Of a stretch of DNA of 64,000 nt, positions 506-54,311 are shown in pieces. The notes under the pieces are model-generated. The model saw only the letters and a program-made list of their open reading frames with translations. It was not told the DNA's origin and did no database searches. The stretch covers positions 682,001 through 746,000 of the forward strand of contig NZ_CP101943.1 in assembly GCF_024508235.1 (NCBI RefSeq), given 5' to 3'. Made by a program: the position numbers and the translations under genes. Numbering within the stretch: position 1 is the first letter of the stretch; every line of letters starts with the position of its first letter. This DNA is from Halococcus qingdaonensis. Its GTDB lineage: Archaea > Halobacteriota > Halobacteria > Halobacteriales > Halococcaceae.

Positions 506-1459
506 TTACTCCTCGTCGAGTTCTTCGGTGATGTCGTCGACGTCCACGTCGGCATCCTCGAGCTCCTCCTCGATGGCGTCGAGATCGGCCTCGCCACCGC
601 CGCCGCCCATACCGCCCATCATGCCACCCATGCCGCCCATCATCCCGCCGGTGCCGTCGATGACCTCCTCGACGATCACGCGATCGAGGTCGAGCCGGTC
701 GATGAGATCGCCCAGGATCTGCTGTTTGCCCATCATCCACTGCTGGTCGAACTGGAGCTGGGGCGACTGCTCGATGTAGAGCGTCTCCTTCTCGACGACC
801 TCGGTCTCGAACTCGGGTTCGCTCTCCTCGTCGTCCTCGTCCTCGTCGGACTCCACCATCTGCTCTTCTTCGACTTCGTCCGTCTCGATGCGCATGTCGA
901 AGTCGGCGTCGAAGTACATGCCGAGCATCCCCTCGGCCTGTTCGAGGCGGTCGTCGACCGTGTCGAGCACCTCGTAGTCGTACTCGACGTCTTGGCCGGC
1001 GAGCGGGTGGTTGAAATCCACACGTGCGCGCCCGCCGATGATCGTCTCGACGTGGCCGTGCTCGCCGTCGATGTCGACGTGGCCGCCCGGATAGCGGTCG
1101 TCCTCCGGGATGCGGTCGGCGCTCACAGTACGAACTTCGTCCTCGTCGTACTCGCCGAAGGCCTCGTCGGCGGGCACCGTCACGGTGCCCGAATCGCCGG
1201 CCTCGCCGCCGGTGAAGTCCTCCTCGACGGTGTCGAAGAGGTGGCCGGCACCGACCGCGATGACGCGCGGCTCGAAGCTCTGCTGTTGGTCGTCGACGCC
1301 CTCCTCCTCGGCGACCTCCTCGTCGGTCGTGTCGACGAGCTGGTCGTTCTCGACCGACCGGGCGGTGTAGGCGAGACGGACGAAATCTCCCTCCTGAATC
1401 CCGCTTGCGGCTTCCTCGTCGGCGTCCGATGCGGACTGTTCGCTTGCTTCGTCGCTCAT
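506..1459 (-). CDS. FKBP-type (SlyD-like) peptidyl-prolyl cis-trans isomerase
   Basis: This 317-residue protein is probably a cytoplasmic folding factor that isomerises X-Pro bonds. The N-terminal third contains the FKBP core (GDFVRLAYTARSVENDQLVD, AVGAGHLFDTVEEDF) and a central insert-in-flap type segment with HVDIDGEHGHVETIIGGRA followed by DFNHPLAGQDVEYDYEVL, a hallmark of SlyD-like long archaeal FKBPs. A C-terminal extension of about 150 residues is acidic and ends in a Met/Gly-rich run (repeated GGMMGGMG) and a Glu/Asp tail. The extension is longer than in bacterial SlyD; its Met and Gly richness might bind metal, which is inference. Transcription is divergent from the amphi-Trp gene. 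Confidence 0.9.
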   Translation of the reverse strand: MSDEASEQSASDADEEAASGIQEGDFVRLAYTARSVENDQLVDTTDEEVAEEEGVDDQQQSFEPRVIAVGAGHLFDTVEEDFTGGEAGDSGTVTVPADEAFGEYDEDEVRTVSADRIPEDDRYPGGHVDIDGEHGHVETIIGGRARVDFNHPLAGQDVEYDYEVLDTVDDRLEQAEGMLGMYFDADFDMRIETDEVEEEQMVESDEDEDDEESEPEFETEVVEKETLYIEQSPQLQFDQQWMMGKQQILGDLIDRLDLDRVIVEEVIDGTGGMMGGMGGMMGGMGGGGGEADLDAIEEELEDADVDVDDITEELDEE

Positions 1460-1608
1460 ACCCCCTCAACTCCCGTTCGACGTTTAAGAACGTTGCTTCA
1501 CGTTCGCCTGCGGACGACGGATCGCGCTGCTCACGTACTGCAAGCGAGCGACGTCGTCGCCGTTCGTGCAGGGGACAGGTTTAGGAACCGGAACGTCCTC
1601 TGTCGGAT

Positions 1609-47427: not shown

Positions 47428-48845
47428 TGGACCGCCACCTCCGGCAGCTCGCGCACGTCGGTGACCTTTCCTGTCACTGCCGCCGCGGCGACCATCACCG
47501 GACTCATCAGCACAGTTCTACCCTCTTTCGAGCCCTGCCGCCCGACGAAGTTCCGGTTCGACGAGGAGGCACAGGCTTGATCGCCTTCCAGTTGATCCTC
47601 GTTCATCCCGAGACACATCGAACAGCCCGCACCGCGCCACTCGAAGCCTGCCTCGGTGAAGATTTCGTCGAGCCCCTCCGCCTCGGCGGCCTCCTTGACG
47701 CGCTGGCTGCCCGGGACGACCATCGCGCGAACGCTCGCATCGACTTCCCGCCCGTCGACGACGTCGGCGGCGGCCCGGAGATCGGGCAGTCGGGCGTTCG
47801 TACACGAACCCAGAAACGCCACGTCGATGTCGTAGCCCTGCATCGTTTCTCCGGGCTCGACGCGCATGTGCTCCTGAGAGCCCCGTGCGGTCTCCTGTTT
47901 GTCCGCCGGGAGCGCGTCGGGTTCGGGGATCGCTTCGGTCACGCCGATCCCTTGGCCCGGCGTCGTCCCCCACGTCACGACGGGTTCGATCTCGTCGCCG
48001 TCGATCGTGACGACGTCGTCGTACTCGGCGTCCGCGTCCGACGTGATCGACTCCCAGTACTCCTTGTGCGCCTCGAACTTCTCGGGGTCGTCACGGAAGG
48101 CATCCGTCTCGCGAAGCCACTCGTAGGTGGTCTCGTCGGGGTTGACGTAGCCCGCTCGCGCGCCGCCCTCGATCGACATGTTGCAGATGCTCATCCGTCC
48201 CTCCATGTCGAGCGACTCGATCGCCTCGCCAGCGTACTCGTAGACGTAGCCGACGCCGCCGTCGACGCCGAGCTTCCGGATGATGGTGAGGATGACGTCC
48301 TTCGCGCCCACATGACTATCGAGCTCGCCCGTGACCTCGATCTTCCGGACCTTCTTCTTCTCCATCGCCACCGTCTGGGTGGCGAGCACGTCGCGGATCT
48401 GCGAGGTACCGATACCGAACGCGAGCGCGCCGAAGGCTCCGTGCGTCGAGGTGTGCGAATCGCCACAGACGATCGTCGCCCCGGGCTCGGTGAGTCCCTG
48501 CTCCGGGCCGATGACGTGGACGATGCCCTGGTCGCCGCTGCTGGGATCGTCGAACTCGATTCCGGAGTCACGGACGTTCGCCTCCAGTTCGCTCATCATC
48601 TCTTCGGCGGCGTCGTCGGCGAACGGCCGCGACTGGTCCGCGGTCGGCACGATGTGGTCCACCGTCGCGTGGGTCAGGTCGGGATAGGCGACCTCCATGT
48701 CGCGCTCGCCGAGCATGCCGAACGCCTGCGGGCTCGTCACCTCGTGGATGAGGTGGAGGCCCACGAACAGCTGTGTCTGGCCCGTGGGCAGTTCGGTGAC
48801 GGTGTGTTCGTCCCAGACCTTGTCGTAGAGCGTGCGCTCGCTCAT
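47424..48845 (-). CDS. leuC: 3-isopropylmalate dehydratase, large subunit
   Basis: This 473-residue aconitase-family subunit binds the 4Fe-4S cluster with the cysteines in [20 protein letters not shown] and [18 protein letters not shown]. Further motifs are [20 protein letters not shown] and [20 protein letters not shown]. The length fits LeuC. The start overlaps the stop of the small acidic orf by four bases. Confidence 0.96.
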
Positions 48846-49249
48846 CGGGCGTCGTCGCGGCCTTCGGTGCCACGCTCGAACACCCGATTGGGCTCGGCCT
48901 GCGTGGGCGGTTCGTGGTCGATGTCCTTCATCCGCTCCCCGTCGACCGGCTCGTCGGCATCGGCGTTTGCGTCCGTCTCCGCGTCTGTGGTCTCCTCGTG
49001 TCCGTCGCGCTCACTTCCGGAAGACGTTCCGTCTTCCGTCGTTCGAGAACCGTTGGTTCTCTCACCGCCGTCGGACCGCTCCGCGCTCCGACGAGGTTCG
49101 TGCTCACTTCGTTCGCTCTCACCGCCGTCGGCCGCGACGGTCGGCCCACGCCGATAGACCACGGCGTCGCCGAACGGTCGTCCGGTGTCGGGATGGGTGT
49201 GGTCGACCGTGCTCATCGTCGTCTCTCGTTCGTGTCGTGTTTCAGTCAT
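48842..49249 (-). CDS. Small disordered acidic protein between ilvC and leuC
   Basis: From ATG 49249 the frame encodes 135 residues (124 from a second ATG at 49216). It has a conserved-looking start ([20 protein letters not shown] with [11 protein letters not shown]), a long Ser/Glu/Arg/Thr/Asp low-complexity middle and a conserved-looking end ([20 protein letters not shown] then EGRDDAR). I recall a small protein at this position in other haloarchaeal ilv-leu operons, but its function is unknown to me. ATG 49249 overlaps the ilvC stop by eight bases in the same ATGACTGA form used at leuD-leuB, favouring the longer start. The low-complexity middle may be expanded in this strain. Confidence 0.65.
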
Positions 49250-50291
49250 CTGCTTGCACTCGTTCGGTTTCGTTTCGTTCCTCGTTCGATTCGGATTCCT
49301 CGGCCCACGCGAACAGATCGCGCAGGCGCTCGCCGACCTCCTCGATCTCGTGGTCTTTCTCGGCCTGCCGCAGCTGGCGATAGGCGGGTCGGTTGGCCTG
49401 GTTCTCCGCGATCCACTCGCGGGCGAACGCCCCGCTCTGCACGTCGTCGAGGACCTGCTCCATGTTCTCGCGGGCGTGCTCGTCGACCACGACGTCGCCC
49501 TTGGTGAGACCGCCGAACTCGGCCGTATCGGAGACCGAATCCCACATGCCGCCGAGCCCACCTTCGTACATCAGATCGACGATCAGCTTCATCTCGTTGA
49601 GACACTCGAAGTAGGCCATCTCGGGCGAGTAGCCCGCATCGACGAGCGTCTCGTAGGCCTGCTTGATCAGGCTCGTCACGCCACCGCAGAGCACCGCCTG
49701 CTCGCCGAACAGATCGGTCTCGGTCTCCTCGCGGAAACTGGTCTCGACGACGCCCGCACGGGTACAGCCGATCCCCTGCGCGTACGCGAGCGCTTCGTCG
49801 GCTGCCTCGCCCGTGGCGTCCTGGTAGACGGCCAGCAGCCCCGGCGTTCCCTCGCCGCGCTCGTAGTCCCGGCGGACGATGTGGCCCGGCCCCTTCGGTG
49901 CGACCATCGTCACGTCCACGTCGTCGGCCGGCTCGATCTGCCCGAAGTGGATGTTGAACCCGTGGGCGAACTGGAGGGTATCGCCGGCGTCGAGCTCCTC
50001 GGCGATGTCCTCGTACACTGCGGGCTGGACGGTATCGGGAACGAGCATCGAGACGACGTCCGCGCGTGCGGCGGCCTCGACGGGTGTTGCAACGTCGAGA
50101 CCGTCCTCGCGGACGGCGTCGCGCGAACTCGAATCCTCTCGGAGACCCACGACCACGTCGACCTCGCTGTCGGCGAGGTTCTGCGCGTGGGCGTGGCCCT
50201 GTGAGCCGTAGCCCATGACGGCTACAGTTTTGCCTTCGAGTGCGGTGCTGTCTGCATCGTCGTCGTAGTAGATCGTTGCGTGTTCTGTCAT
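49242..50291 (-). CDS. ilvC: Ketol-acid reductoisomerase
   Basis: This 349-residue class I enzyme converts 2-acetolactate or 2-aceto-2-hydroxybutyrate to dihydroxy acids with NAD(P)H and Mg. Seen are [40 protein letters not shown] with [20 protein letters not shown], and FSEEVETD-type metal region read here as [20 protein letters not shown]. Start ATG 50291 overlaps the ilvN stop. Confidence 0.96.
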
Positions 50292-50920
50292 TGTCGTACC
50301 TGCGTTCGTTCGTACCGCTCCTCTTCCGCGTGTGTCGTCCACTCTTCGCCGCGCGCGAGCGCCGTCTGACCGGTTCTGGCGAGCTCGCGGATGCCAAACT
50401 GCCGGAAGGCGTCGATCGCGTCGTCGATCTTCTGCTCGTCGCCGGTGATCTGCACCGTGATGGTGCGTGGGCCGGCGTCGAGCGTCTCGCCGCCGTACAT
50501 GTCTGTGATGGCGTTGACCTTGTCCGGCTCCTCGCCGTGGACCTTCAACACCACCAGCTCACGGCGGATTGCGTCGTCGCCGAGCTCGCGCACCGAGATG
50601 ACGTTGACGAGCTTTTCGAGCTGCTTTTCGACCTGGCGGATGCCCGGTTCGGGCTCCTCGATGACCAGCGTCACGCGCGAGGTCTCGGGATTGGTCGTCG
50701 TGCCGACAGTCAAGGATTCGATGTTGAACTGCCGGCGCGAGACCAGCCCCGAGATCTTCGCCAGAACACCCGGCTCGTTCTGGACGAGCGCCGATAGTGC
50801 CGTTCGCCGCGGGTCGTGGACGGCCTCCATCTCGGGATCGATCCGGATGCCCTGGGCGTTGCGCCGCCCCGACGGCTGGGGGCGCTCCTCGGGGGCCGGT
50901 CCCTGCAGACCCTCCGTCAT
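50288..50920 (-). CDS. ilvN: Acetolactate synthase, regulatory small subunit
   Basis: This 210-residue protein has an N-terminal ACT domain ([40 protein letters not shown]) and the C-terminal IlvN/IlvH domain ([20 protein letters not shown]), which together sense valine and activate IlvB. About 35 residues precede the ACT domain, and a polar tail of about 25 follows. It overlaps both neighbours by four bases. Confidence 0.94.
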
Positions 50921-52719
50921 AGCTGCTCCTCCGCCAGCACGAACTGGCCGTTGGCTCCCCCACTGGGGACCATCGGATAGACGTCCTCGGTCGGGTCGAT
51001 GAACGCGTCGACCACCGACGGACCGTCGTAAGCCAGCGCGTCCTCGATGACGTCGGCGACCTCATCGTGGCCCTCCATTCGGAACCCGCGCGCACCGAAC
51101 GCCTCAGCGAGCGCGGCGAAATCGGGCACCCACGGGTACTCCGAGGCCATCCGTCGGCCGCCGTGGAAGCTGTCCTGCCACTGACGCACCATGCCGACGG
51201 CCTCGTTGTTGAGGATGAACACGGTGATGTCGAGATTCTCGCGAACGGCGACCGCCAGCTCCTGCAGCGTCATCAGGAACGACCCGTCGCCGTCGAAACA
51301 GACGACCGACTGGTCGTCGTCGGCCGCGAACCGCGCGCCGATGGCCGACGGCAGCCCGTAGCCCATCGTGCCCAGTCCGTGCGAGGAGACCCACGTCCGT
51401 GGCTCGGTGTACGTCCAGTACTGGACCGCCCACATCTGGTGCTGGCCGACGCCCGTGGTGACGATGGTGTCGTCGTCGGTCGCCGTGTCCACGGTTTCGA
51501 CGACGAACTGCGGCTTCAGCGGATCGTCCTCGTCCATCGGGTAATCCATCGGGTAGTCGGTCTGCCACTGCTGGCACTGCTCGACCCATTCCTGGAACCG
51601 CTCGCCGGTGGCCGCCATGTCCGCCGCGCGCTCGTCGGCCATCGCCCCGTGCACCTGTTCGATGACGACGCTCGCCTCGCCCAAGAGTGGATAGTCGGCC
51701 GCGACGTTCTTCGAGATCTCCGCCGCATCGATGTCGGCGTGGATGATCTCGGCCTCCGGGGCGAACGTCTCGACGCCACCCGTCAGGCGATCGTCGAACC
51801 GCGTTCCGACCGCGAACATGGCGTCACAGTGGGTGATGGCCATGTTCGCGTAGCCCGTGCCGTGCATCCCCGCCATCTCCATCGCGAGCTCGTGATCCTC
51901 GGGGAACGCGCCCACCGCGGGCATCGTCGTCACCACCGGGATCCCGTACTCGGTGGCGAACTCCCTGAGCTCGGCACAGGCTTCGCCCTTGATGACGCCG
52001 CCGCCCGCGAGGATCACGGGCTTGTCGGCGCGCGCGAGCACGCCGGCGGCCGTCTCGACCGCCTCGCTATCGGCGCGCTCGGGTGGGTCGTACGTCTCGG
52101 GCGTCGTTCCCGCGGCCGGCTCACTGTCGGTCGACCCAGTTGTAATGTCCTTCGGGAGATCGACCAGCGTGGGGCCCTGTCGGCCGGCATCCGCGAGCGC
52201 GAACGCCTCACCGACCGTATCGCCGACCGAGTCGGCGTCGCCGGCGAAGTAGTTCTCCTTCGTCACCGGGTTCGTAACACCGGTGGTGTCGGTCTCCTGG
52301 AAGGCGTCGGTCCCGACCATTGTGGAGGGGACCTGACCGGTGAGCGCCACCAGTGGATCCGAATCCATCGAGGCGTCCGCGAGCCCGGTCACGAGGTTCG
52401 TCGCGCCCGGTCCCGAGGTCGCCAGACAGATGCCGGGTTCGCCCGAGACGATGCCGAAGGCGTCGGCCGCGTGGGCCGCGCCCTGTTCATGTGCCATCGT
52501 CACGTGGTCGAGCGGCGAGTCGTACAGCGCGTCGTAGACCGGCATGATGGCCCCGCCCTGGACGCCGAACAGCGTCTCGACGTCCGTCCGTTCGAGCGCC
52601 CGCGCCACCGACTCCGCACCGCTGGTCACGGGGCGCTCGCTGGCTTCGGTCGCCTCGGCCGTCTCCGGTTCGGCGCGCTCGGGCTCGCCCGTCCGTGGGG
52701 GCTGCTGGCCCTCGCTCAT
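50917..52719 (-). CDS. ilvB: Acetolactate synthase, catalytic large subunit
   Basis: This 600-residue thiamine diphosphate enzyme forms acetolactate (or acetohydroxybutyrate), the first common step of valine, leucine and isoleucine synthesis. Seen are DVETLFGVQGGAIMPVYDAL with the catalytic Glu in TMAHEQGAAHAADAFG, and the ThDP-binding CFDGDGSFLMTLQELAVAV through ILNNEAVGM. ATG 52719 is chosen because GGAGG lies eight bases upstream; the open frame runs on to an ATG at 52818 without a ribosome site. It overlaps a 25-codon upstream ORF by ATGA and lies downstream of the leader ORF at 52871-52954. Confidence 0.96.
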   Translation of the reverse strand: MSEGQQPPRTGEPERAEPETAEATEASERPVTSGAESVARALERTDVETLFGVQGGAIMPVYDALYDSPLDHVTMAHEQGAAHAADAFGIVSGEPGICLATSGPGATNLVTGLADASMDSDPLVALTGQVPSTMVGTDAFQETDTTGVTNPVTKENYFAGDADSVGDTVGEAFALADAGRQGPTLVDLPKDITTGSTDSEPAAGTTPETYDPPERADSEAVETAAGVLARADKPVILAGGGVIKGEACAELREFATEYGIPVVTTMPAVGAFPEDHELAMEMAGMHGTGYANMAITHCDAMFAVGTRFDDRLTGGVETFAPEAEIIHADIDAAEISKNVAADYPLLGEASVVIEQVHGAMADERAADMAATGERFQEWVEQCQQWQTDYPMDYPMDEDDPLKPQFVVETVDTATDDDTIVTTGVGQHQMWAVQYWTYTEPRTWVSSHGLGTMGYGLPSAIGARFAADDDQSVVCFDGDGSFLMTLQELAVAVRENLDITVFILNNEAVGMVRQWQDSFHGGRRMASEYPWVPDFAALAEAFGARGFRMEGHDEVADVIEDALAYDGPSVVDAFIDPTEDVYPMVPSGGANGQFVLAEEQL

Positions 52720-52793
52720 CGGTCGCCTCCGTCGTTCGTCGTCGATGCCGCTCGATTGTCGCGTGTGGTCGGTGCTGGGTCTCGTGTGCTCAT
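52716..52793 (-). CDS. Short upstream ORF (25 aa) overlapping the ilvB start
   Basis: ATG 52793 opens a 25-codon frame starting MSTRDPAPTTRDNRAASTTN whose TGA overlaps the ilvB ATG (ATGA). It contains no Leu, Ile or Val, so it cannot itself sense branched-chain amino acids. It includes the GGAGG site of ilvB, so ribosomes translating it would expose or deliver ribosomes to ilvB. Whether it is translated is unknown. Confidence 0.35.
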   Translation of the reverse strand: MSTRDPAPTTRDNRAASTTNDGGDR

Positions 52794-52862
52794 CGGTGTG
52801 TCGTCGGCTGTCGCGCATGCTGTTCGGCGGGCGAAACGCGTCGGGGTCGAAGGAAGTGGCTC

Positions 52863-52883
52863 TGTAGGGGCTAGACCCCTACA
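52863..52883 (-). promoter_or_regulatory. Perfect 8-bp hairpin at the end of the ilv leader ORF
   Basis: Read on the minus strand, TGTAGGGG (52883-52876) and CCCCTACA (52870-52863) pair perfectly around the five-base loop TCTAG, which contains the leader stop TAG. The upstream arm is formed by the last Val-Gly-Val region of the leader. A second possible partner for GGGGTC is GACCCC about 20 bases downstream, so two alternative structures can be drawn. There is no T-run after it. Confidence 0.6.
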
Positions 52884-52954
52884 ATAATGAGGCCGCGCGC
52901 GCCGAGTGCGCCGCTCCGAGTTCGCGTCCCTCGGGCGGTGGTCGGTCGCATCAT
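52871..52954 (-). CDS. Leaderless 27-residue leader peptide of the ilv-leu operon, ending GLIIVGV
   Basis: On the minus strand ATG-ATG at 52954-52949 opens a frame of 27 codons ending in GLIIVGV and TAG. Five of the last seven residues are Leu, Ile, Ile, Val and Val. The codons CTC-ATT-ATT-GTA include ATT and GTA, which are rare in this genome where ATC and GTC dominate. The TATA box at 52981-52986 lies 26 bases before the ATG, so a leaderless mRNA would begin here. The stop lies inside a hairpin loop. The arrangement matches an amino-acid-sensing leader peptide of the kind known for bacterial ilv and leu operons; translation in this organism is inferred. Confidence 0.65.
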   Translation of the reverse strand: MMRPTTARGTRTRSGALGARGLIIVGV

Positions 52955-52978
52955 CGTTATCGTCCCCACCAGGGGATC

Positions 52979-52988
52979 GGTTATAACC
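52979..52988 (-). promoter_or_regulatory. Promoter of the ilv leader and ilv-leu operon
   Basis: GGTTATAACC is a perfect palindrome containing the TATA element TTATAA 26 bases before the leader ATG, with a purine-rich GCAAAG (BRE-like) just upstream. Next to it TTTGC (52989-52993) and GCAAA (53001-53005) form an inverted repeat with a seven-base spacer, a possible operator for a transcription regulator. Confidence 0.6.
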
Positions 52989-53074
52989 TTTGCGCGCCGT
53001 GCAAACGTTGCCCCGAACGCGCGGTTCGGGCGCTACCTGTGGCTGGTGGGTGGAGGCGTGCGACGGGGTCATAC

Positions 53075-54311
<1,237 letters not shown>

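Follow-up and report, generated by a model that had tools for sequence, protein, structure and literature searches.

The classical attenuators of Escherichia coli (ilvGMEDA, leu, trp, and his) carry codons for the end product of the operon, use a particular synonymous codon, and depend on a hairpin controlled by the ribosome (PMC1183508). Among actinobacteria, the ilvB leaders of Corynebacterium ilvBNC, the ilvB-II motif, Mycobacterium ilvB1, and Streptomyces contain an Ile/Val/Leu open reading frame (ORF) that overlaps a candidate terminator (PMC1262725; PMC10272879). The regulatory codons of Mycobacterium tuberculosis ilvB1 include GUA, its upstream ORF is translated, premature termination has been shown, and the effect of disrupting its terminator was as expected (PMC13236596). 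Altering the candidate codons of Streptomyces coelicolor had no effect (PMC1262725).

We analyzed a stretch of 64,000 nucleotides (the window) from the genome of the haloarchaeon Halococcus qingdaonensis (2.70 Mb, one contig), in which a candidate leader sits in the gap between leuA and ilvB, and ilvBNC is followed by leuC, leuD, and leuB, identified among the window ORFs from their own sequences. Like the actinobacterial ilvB leaders, this element has a short ORF with branched-chain amino acid (BCAA) codons that overlaps a hairpin before ilvB and would form a two-state switch without an antiterminator; we claim no sequence relation. The actinobacterial leaders act through bacterial RNA polymerase and poly-U terminators, and an antiterminator has also been proposed in M. 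tuberculosis, whereas the haloarchaeal element is subject to archaeal transcription and has neither a conserved antiterminator nor a uniform U-run. With the classical attenuators it shares end-product codons in the leader ORF, a particular synonymous codon, and a hairpin that would be governed by the ribosome, but in those systems terminator and antiterminator hairpins compete and the control codons form longer runs, in contrast to the single hairpin that directly overlaps the codons here. At E. coli tnaC, the position of the ribosome at the end of the leader ORF determines the use of an unstructured downstream tract for termination; tnaC senses free tryptophan through the nascent peptide and uses Rho, whereas the haloarchaeal element shows conserved codon choice and would have FttA/aCPSF1 as its factor. 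A literature search of partial coverage, with most subscription papers outside it, found no archaeal leader-peptide attenuator, and control of this type, known from bacteria, is as far as we found undescribed in archaea.

Read from the letters of the window, the minus strand at 52863-52993 comprises a TTATAA box, 26 bases, ATGATG, a short ORF, and a hairpin (Table 1); the original prediction had given the same TATA box, ATGATG, 27-codon ORF, and stem, and this description was borne out throughout. The ORF closes with CTC ATT ATT GTA GGG GTC TAG. Its last codons enter a perfect 8-bp stem (TGTAGGGG with CCCCTACA; 9 bp when the T-G pair is included), which folds at -13.7 kcal/mol with pair probabilities of 0.9 to 1.0 and dominates the leader ensemble. 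Rfam covariance models (T-box, ilvB-type motifs, riboswitches, and others) gave no match at E ≤ 1 in window positions 52600-53100.

Table 1. Features of the leuA-ilvB gap and flanking genes in the window
Feature	Position	Strand	Basis or remark
leuA reading frame, no canonical start codon in its own frame	53075..54259	-	Upstream of leader
TATA box TTATAA	52981..52986	-	32 nt 5' of first leader ATG; seen in sequence
Leader ORF, 27 codons, MMRPTTARGTRTRSGALGARGLIIVGV; first ATG 52954, stop TAG 52873-52871	52871..52954	-	Sequence and homologous leader ORFs
Presumed regulatory codons ATT ATT GTA (Ile Ile Val)	52880..52888	-	Rare codons kept at homologous positions
Hairpin 5' arm TGTAGGGG	52876..52883	-	Overlaps end of second Ile codon and GTA GGG G
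Hairpin loop TCTAG with stop codon inside; its T and G form closing U-G pair	52871..52875	-	Folding
Hairpin 3' arm CCCCTACA	52863..52870	-	Sequence and pairing counts
Post-hairpin tract GAGCCACTTCCTTCGACCCC, presumed termination site	52843..52862	-	Relatives: G-poor, pyrimidine-rich, T-runs
ilvB, acetolactate synthase large subunit, first controlled gene; start 52818 or 52719	50917..52818	-	TIGR00118 above cut-off
ilvN, acetolactate synthase small subunit	50288..50920	-	TIGR00119
ilvC, ketol-acid reductoisomerase; start GTG 50342 or ATG 50291	49242..50342	-	TIGR00465

The element is widely conserved. All but one of 391 Halobacteria genomes have ilvB (390), and among 136 haloarchaeal ilvB upstream regions sampled, 130 carry the element, with most families and about 80 genera represented. 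A strict peptide pattern, IVG(A/V) no more than two codons from the stop of an ORF starting with ATG or GTG, accounts for 114 of the 136, and reading the rest by eye brought the count to 130. Reduction of the element-bearing set to less than 90% identity over 120 nt left 107 relatives, to which the counts below refer. The common layout is a short ORF ending Ile-Val-Gly-(Ala/Val), the last codons of which are the 5' arm of a G-rich hairpin, with a stop codon that sits in the loop or overlaps it in 101 of 107. When the core ATYGTAGGGG was sought 5' of ilvB with no ORF required, 115 of its 121 occurrences had an in-frame stop as codon 4 or 5; the remaining 6, all Natrialbaceae-like, have the stop just past the hairpin rather than in the loop. 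Most Halobacteria genomes (375 of 391) contain the pattern ATYGTAGGGGN(3-12)CCCC, as a rule in a single copy, and the reversed control pattern is rare; outside the class, in the rest of the phylum, the pattern was found in 22 of about 204 genomes, near the background of the reversed pattern. Conservation in 130 of 136 regions and 375 of 391 genomes excludes chance. Ahead of their ends, the leader peptides differ nearly everywhere (for example, MQTTTALGPAVSDSDAVVARELIIVGV, MTVRASLSARVRTVDTSALAPIRIVGAF, and MRRHTALPTTVDVAGAVAPIIVGV). The central claim of the original prediction, a leader-peptide control element before an archaeal ilv-leu operon that uses leaderless translation, thus gains support from sequence conservation: relatives keep both the Ile-Val run and the hairpin, with covariation, while the remaining peptide and intergenic DNA drift.

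Inspection of the leuA-ilvB gap showed the element to be absent from one region (L131, genus g53) and from the four genomes that represented families f6 and f11 in the sample; in the sixth region lacking it (L046), the contig ends early. A search of existing annotation for annotated copies on haloarchaeal plasmids found none. One genome (G200) has two ilvB copies (L149 and L169), each with its own leader, that of L149 being Ile-rich (SIIAIIAIIGVS, then stop).

We propose that the element is a ribosome-mediated attenuator that senses charged Ile and Val tRNA, a reading to which we assign a probability of about 0.72. The transcript would begin at the leader ATG, and a ribosome would load on the 5' end and translate at once. 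With Ile and Val tRNAs charged, the ribosome would cross ATT-(ATT)-GTA, reach the stop, and depart, leaving both arms free, and the freed GGGG/CCCC hairpin together with the G-poor pyrimidine tract would end transcription ahead of ilvB. Under a shortage of charged Ile or Val tRNA, the ribosome would stall once ATT or GTA occupies the A site, over the 5' arm and loop; the stalled ribosome would block the hairpin, and polymerase would continue into ilvBNC-leuCDB. Such a two-state switch would need no antiterminator. The conserved leader ORF, selected rare codons, covarying hairpin, promoter spacing, and tract are well supported by the sequence comparison; from them we infer leader translation, stalling on uncharged tRNA, an amino acid signal, and termination as the output, either intrinsic or through FttA/aCPSF1.

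The promoter of the leader is placed accordingly in most relatives. A TATA-like hexamer (at least 5 of 6 positions) lies 29 to 33 nt 5' of the leader start in 80 of 107 (mode, 32) compared with 0.5% of 430 other ATGs from these regions, a comparison that favors leaders somewhat, although not by two orders of magnitude, because the best-scoring in-frame start was taken as the leader start. A TATA box 32 nt before the ATG, the spacing of leaderless mRNAs, puts the transcription start at or next to the ATG, and the conserved short ORF is probably leaderless. Past the hairpin, G makes up 7.6% of the first 20 nt versus 34% of the ORF body. Within 45 nt, 54 of 107 relatives have a T-run of at least 3, versus 2 of 107 for a control stretch; a pyrimidine run of at least 8 is present in 51 of 107, versus none for the control. 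Intergenic termination sites of Haloferax volcanii have T stretches with a TC, hairpins lie no more than 10 nt upstream of 503 termination sites, and one tested hairpin gave 59% termination (PMC7237163). It is reasonable to see in the haloarchaeal hairpin and tract a plausible archaeal terminator.

The original prediction had noted that no T-run follows the hairpin and had looked to translation or RNA stability as the point of control. The lack of a T-run directly 3' of the hairpin holds for the window and for some genomes only, and the relatives show a G-poor, pyrimidine-rich tract with T-runs, which makes transcription termination the likelier output. Post-transcriptional action, in which stalling or termination at the stop alters mRNA stability or access to ilvB for translation with no premature termination, accordingly seems unlikely to us: the window tract agrees with it, ilvB begins about 50 to 150 nt 3' of the hairpin behind an untranslated stretch, and the identical geometry of ribosome and hairpin would serve it, but the class-wide G-poor, T-containing tract resembles H. 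volcanii termination sites (PMC7237163), and a search for a conserved downstream partner of the 5' arm found none.

The pairing of the hairpin is conserved. MAFFT alignment with RNAalifold in ungapped 40-nt windows returned no consensus structure because loop lengths differ, and pairing was then counted per spacer class. Three rearranged stems apart, the spacer between the G and C runs is 5 to 13 nt, with peaks at 5, 6, and 8. The conserved hairpin consists of four G-C pairs and a closing pair; no member of the three main spacer classes lacks the GGGG:CCCC pairing, and the closing pair varies among C-G, U-A, and G-U, with 21 of 21 members of the short-spacer class paired there by three pair types. 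C or T on one side is associated with G or A on the other (Fisher P = 1.7e-5, uncorrected for relatedness). On the IlvB tree, the double change from C-G to U-A falls on one branch five independent times, with more cases via U-G, and L163, L024, L072, and others have rearranged stems whose arms match. Since the four core G-C pairs barely vary, covariation comes from the closing pair together with the few stems that are rearranged. The GTA codon falls within the 5' arm or immediately beside it, a position from which a ribosome on the regulatory codons would exclude the hairpin. The original prediction had also pointed to an alternative pairing of GGGGTC with GACCCC; it exists in the window but is not conserved, being available in 7 of 107 relatives versus 5.7 expected by shuffling. 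This downstream complement of the arm is what a mutually exclusive antiterminator pairing would need, and with it at the shuffle level, we do not file the element as a classical multihairpin attenuator.

The presumed regulatory codons are under selection. As predicted from the window, both are rare: in ilvB of the 107 relatives, ATT accounts for 5.9% of Ile codons and GTA for 0.6% of Val codons. In the leaders, the Ile codon is ATT in 76 (71%) and the Val codon is GTA in 105. GTA is retained also in the approximately one third of genomes whose GTA has an A lacking a pairing partner, so pairing alone is insufficient to explain it. BCAA residues occupy 48% of the last ten leader positions versus 12% elsewhere. 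Divergent leaders have changed letters and kept BCAA codons: L149, before the second ilvB, ends SIIAIIAIIGVS (ORF, MQWSTIPGRSSVGSGASIIAIIAIIGVS), and L072 ends AAVVAIVAIIGVHA (ORF, MSRPLVPDSSAWLSPRRSSVSSGAAVVAIVAIIGVHA), each followed by a stop. Such retention supports a signal based on amino acids rather than on letters. The leaders carry just two to four BCAA codons, sometimes as an Ile-Val pair after another residue (IRIVGA), and models associate few control codons with lower sensitivity (PMC1183508).

These data also bear on a protein-binding site, by which the inverted repeat GTAGGGG-N-CCCCTAC would be a DNA operator or a regulator-bound RNA hairpin and the ORF incidental. The letters GTAGGGG are almost invariant, beyond what pairing or peptide alone requires, and the repeat is symmetric in many genomes. 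However, the variable spacer departs from the fixed half-site spacing of a rigid operator, L149 and L072 keep the frame, the position of the stop, and BCAA codons despite their changed letters, and the ORF start is tied to the promoter by the TATA spacing, all of which makes this reading very improbable. An arrest peptide, the nascent IVG(A/V) end of which would stall the ribosome at the stop on a small molecule such as free valine, much as TnaC responds to tryptophan, would suit conservation limited to the last four or five residues, beside the peptidyl transferase center, but can hardly be credited when synonymous choice is constrained at GTA, which a peptide sensor does not need, when the residues preceding Ile-Val vary freely, and when Ile replaces Val (L149) or other residues replace Ile (L137 and L061).

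Were tRNA-sensing attenuation confirmed, this form of control would not be peculiar to bacteria; as archaeal RNA polymerase and termination differ from their bacterial counterparts, the same logic would operate on leaderless archaeal mRNAs. It would also mean that haloarchaeal transcription and translation are coupled tightly enough for a ribosome to set the fate of polymerase within about 100 nt. Haloferax is among the genera of the class that have the element, and the genetic tractability of some of these makes coupling, stalling, and termination in archaea directly testable.

The start of the neighboring leuA is unusual. Ahead of the catalytic FDTTLRDGEQ, the leuA frame of the window has no ATG, GTG, or TTG, and neither do 24 of the 45 relatives whose upstream DNA was long enough; some relatives have an in-frame GTG. 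All 45 have a leaderless-looking ATG in the reading frame that lies one base earlier, 43 of them with a TATA box, and in the window this out-of-frame ORF (MSHNDTDTEDSSVTPADRVLPGHPGRDD, then stop; 54312-54229, minus strand) lies ahead of the leuA frame from 54259. The out-of-frame peptide ends R-V-L at CGA GTT CTT C (CTC in a few), with LeuA then in the +1 frame, as if LeuA arose from a +1 ribosomal frameshift at the rare Leu codon; it could also arise from a non-AUG start. Substitution counts gave no clear separation of the two frames. Pfeiffer and Dyall-Smith noted the start codon problem in HVO_1510 and speculated on slippage under leucine shortage (PMC8305020). Tentatively, and with some doubt, we suggest that ribosomes sense at more than one point, combining a first archaeal Ile/Val attenuator before ilvB, acting through the archaeal termination machinery, with a LeuA that would be made only if ribosomes entering at the leaderless out-of-frame ATG shift by +1 where the conserved rare Leu codon lies (GTT CTT C).

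No short leaderless ORF precedes ilvD or trpC in the genus. cimA, encoding a LeuA paralog (source genome G000:C1 ~1800880-1800960; L184-L193 and L212), starts within an out-of-frame leaderless ORF that reads Met or Val, then AIMTGERFIRGLPRN, and runs on to a stop. Its hairpin in the genus is a perfect TTCGGGG-GCTC-CCCCGAA (or has a GCCT loop) and begins in an ATT codon; related hairpins occur in only a few other families. We did not count the cimA feature as an instance of the same element, because most other families lack it before cimA.

Between ilvC and leuC, the window encodes a small acidic protein (48842-49216, minus strand) with no Pfam or NCBIfam match, the tail of which recurs in other haloarchaea. 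Two genomes of genus g52 have a second complete element (TATA, a leaderless ORF ending LIVGV at its stop, and hairpin) that is not before ilvB. These copies (L170, ~1524-1544, minus strand; L171, ~1117-1135, plus strand) precede a tiny gene containing HTPPHEAPGANRVFERG (...ANRVFERG...), which resembles, by eye and with no score attached, the tail of the small ilvC-leuC ORF. With the copy beside a gene of this type, the leader appears to accompany a gene of the operon even when relocated.
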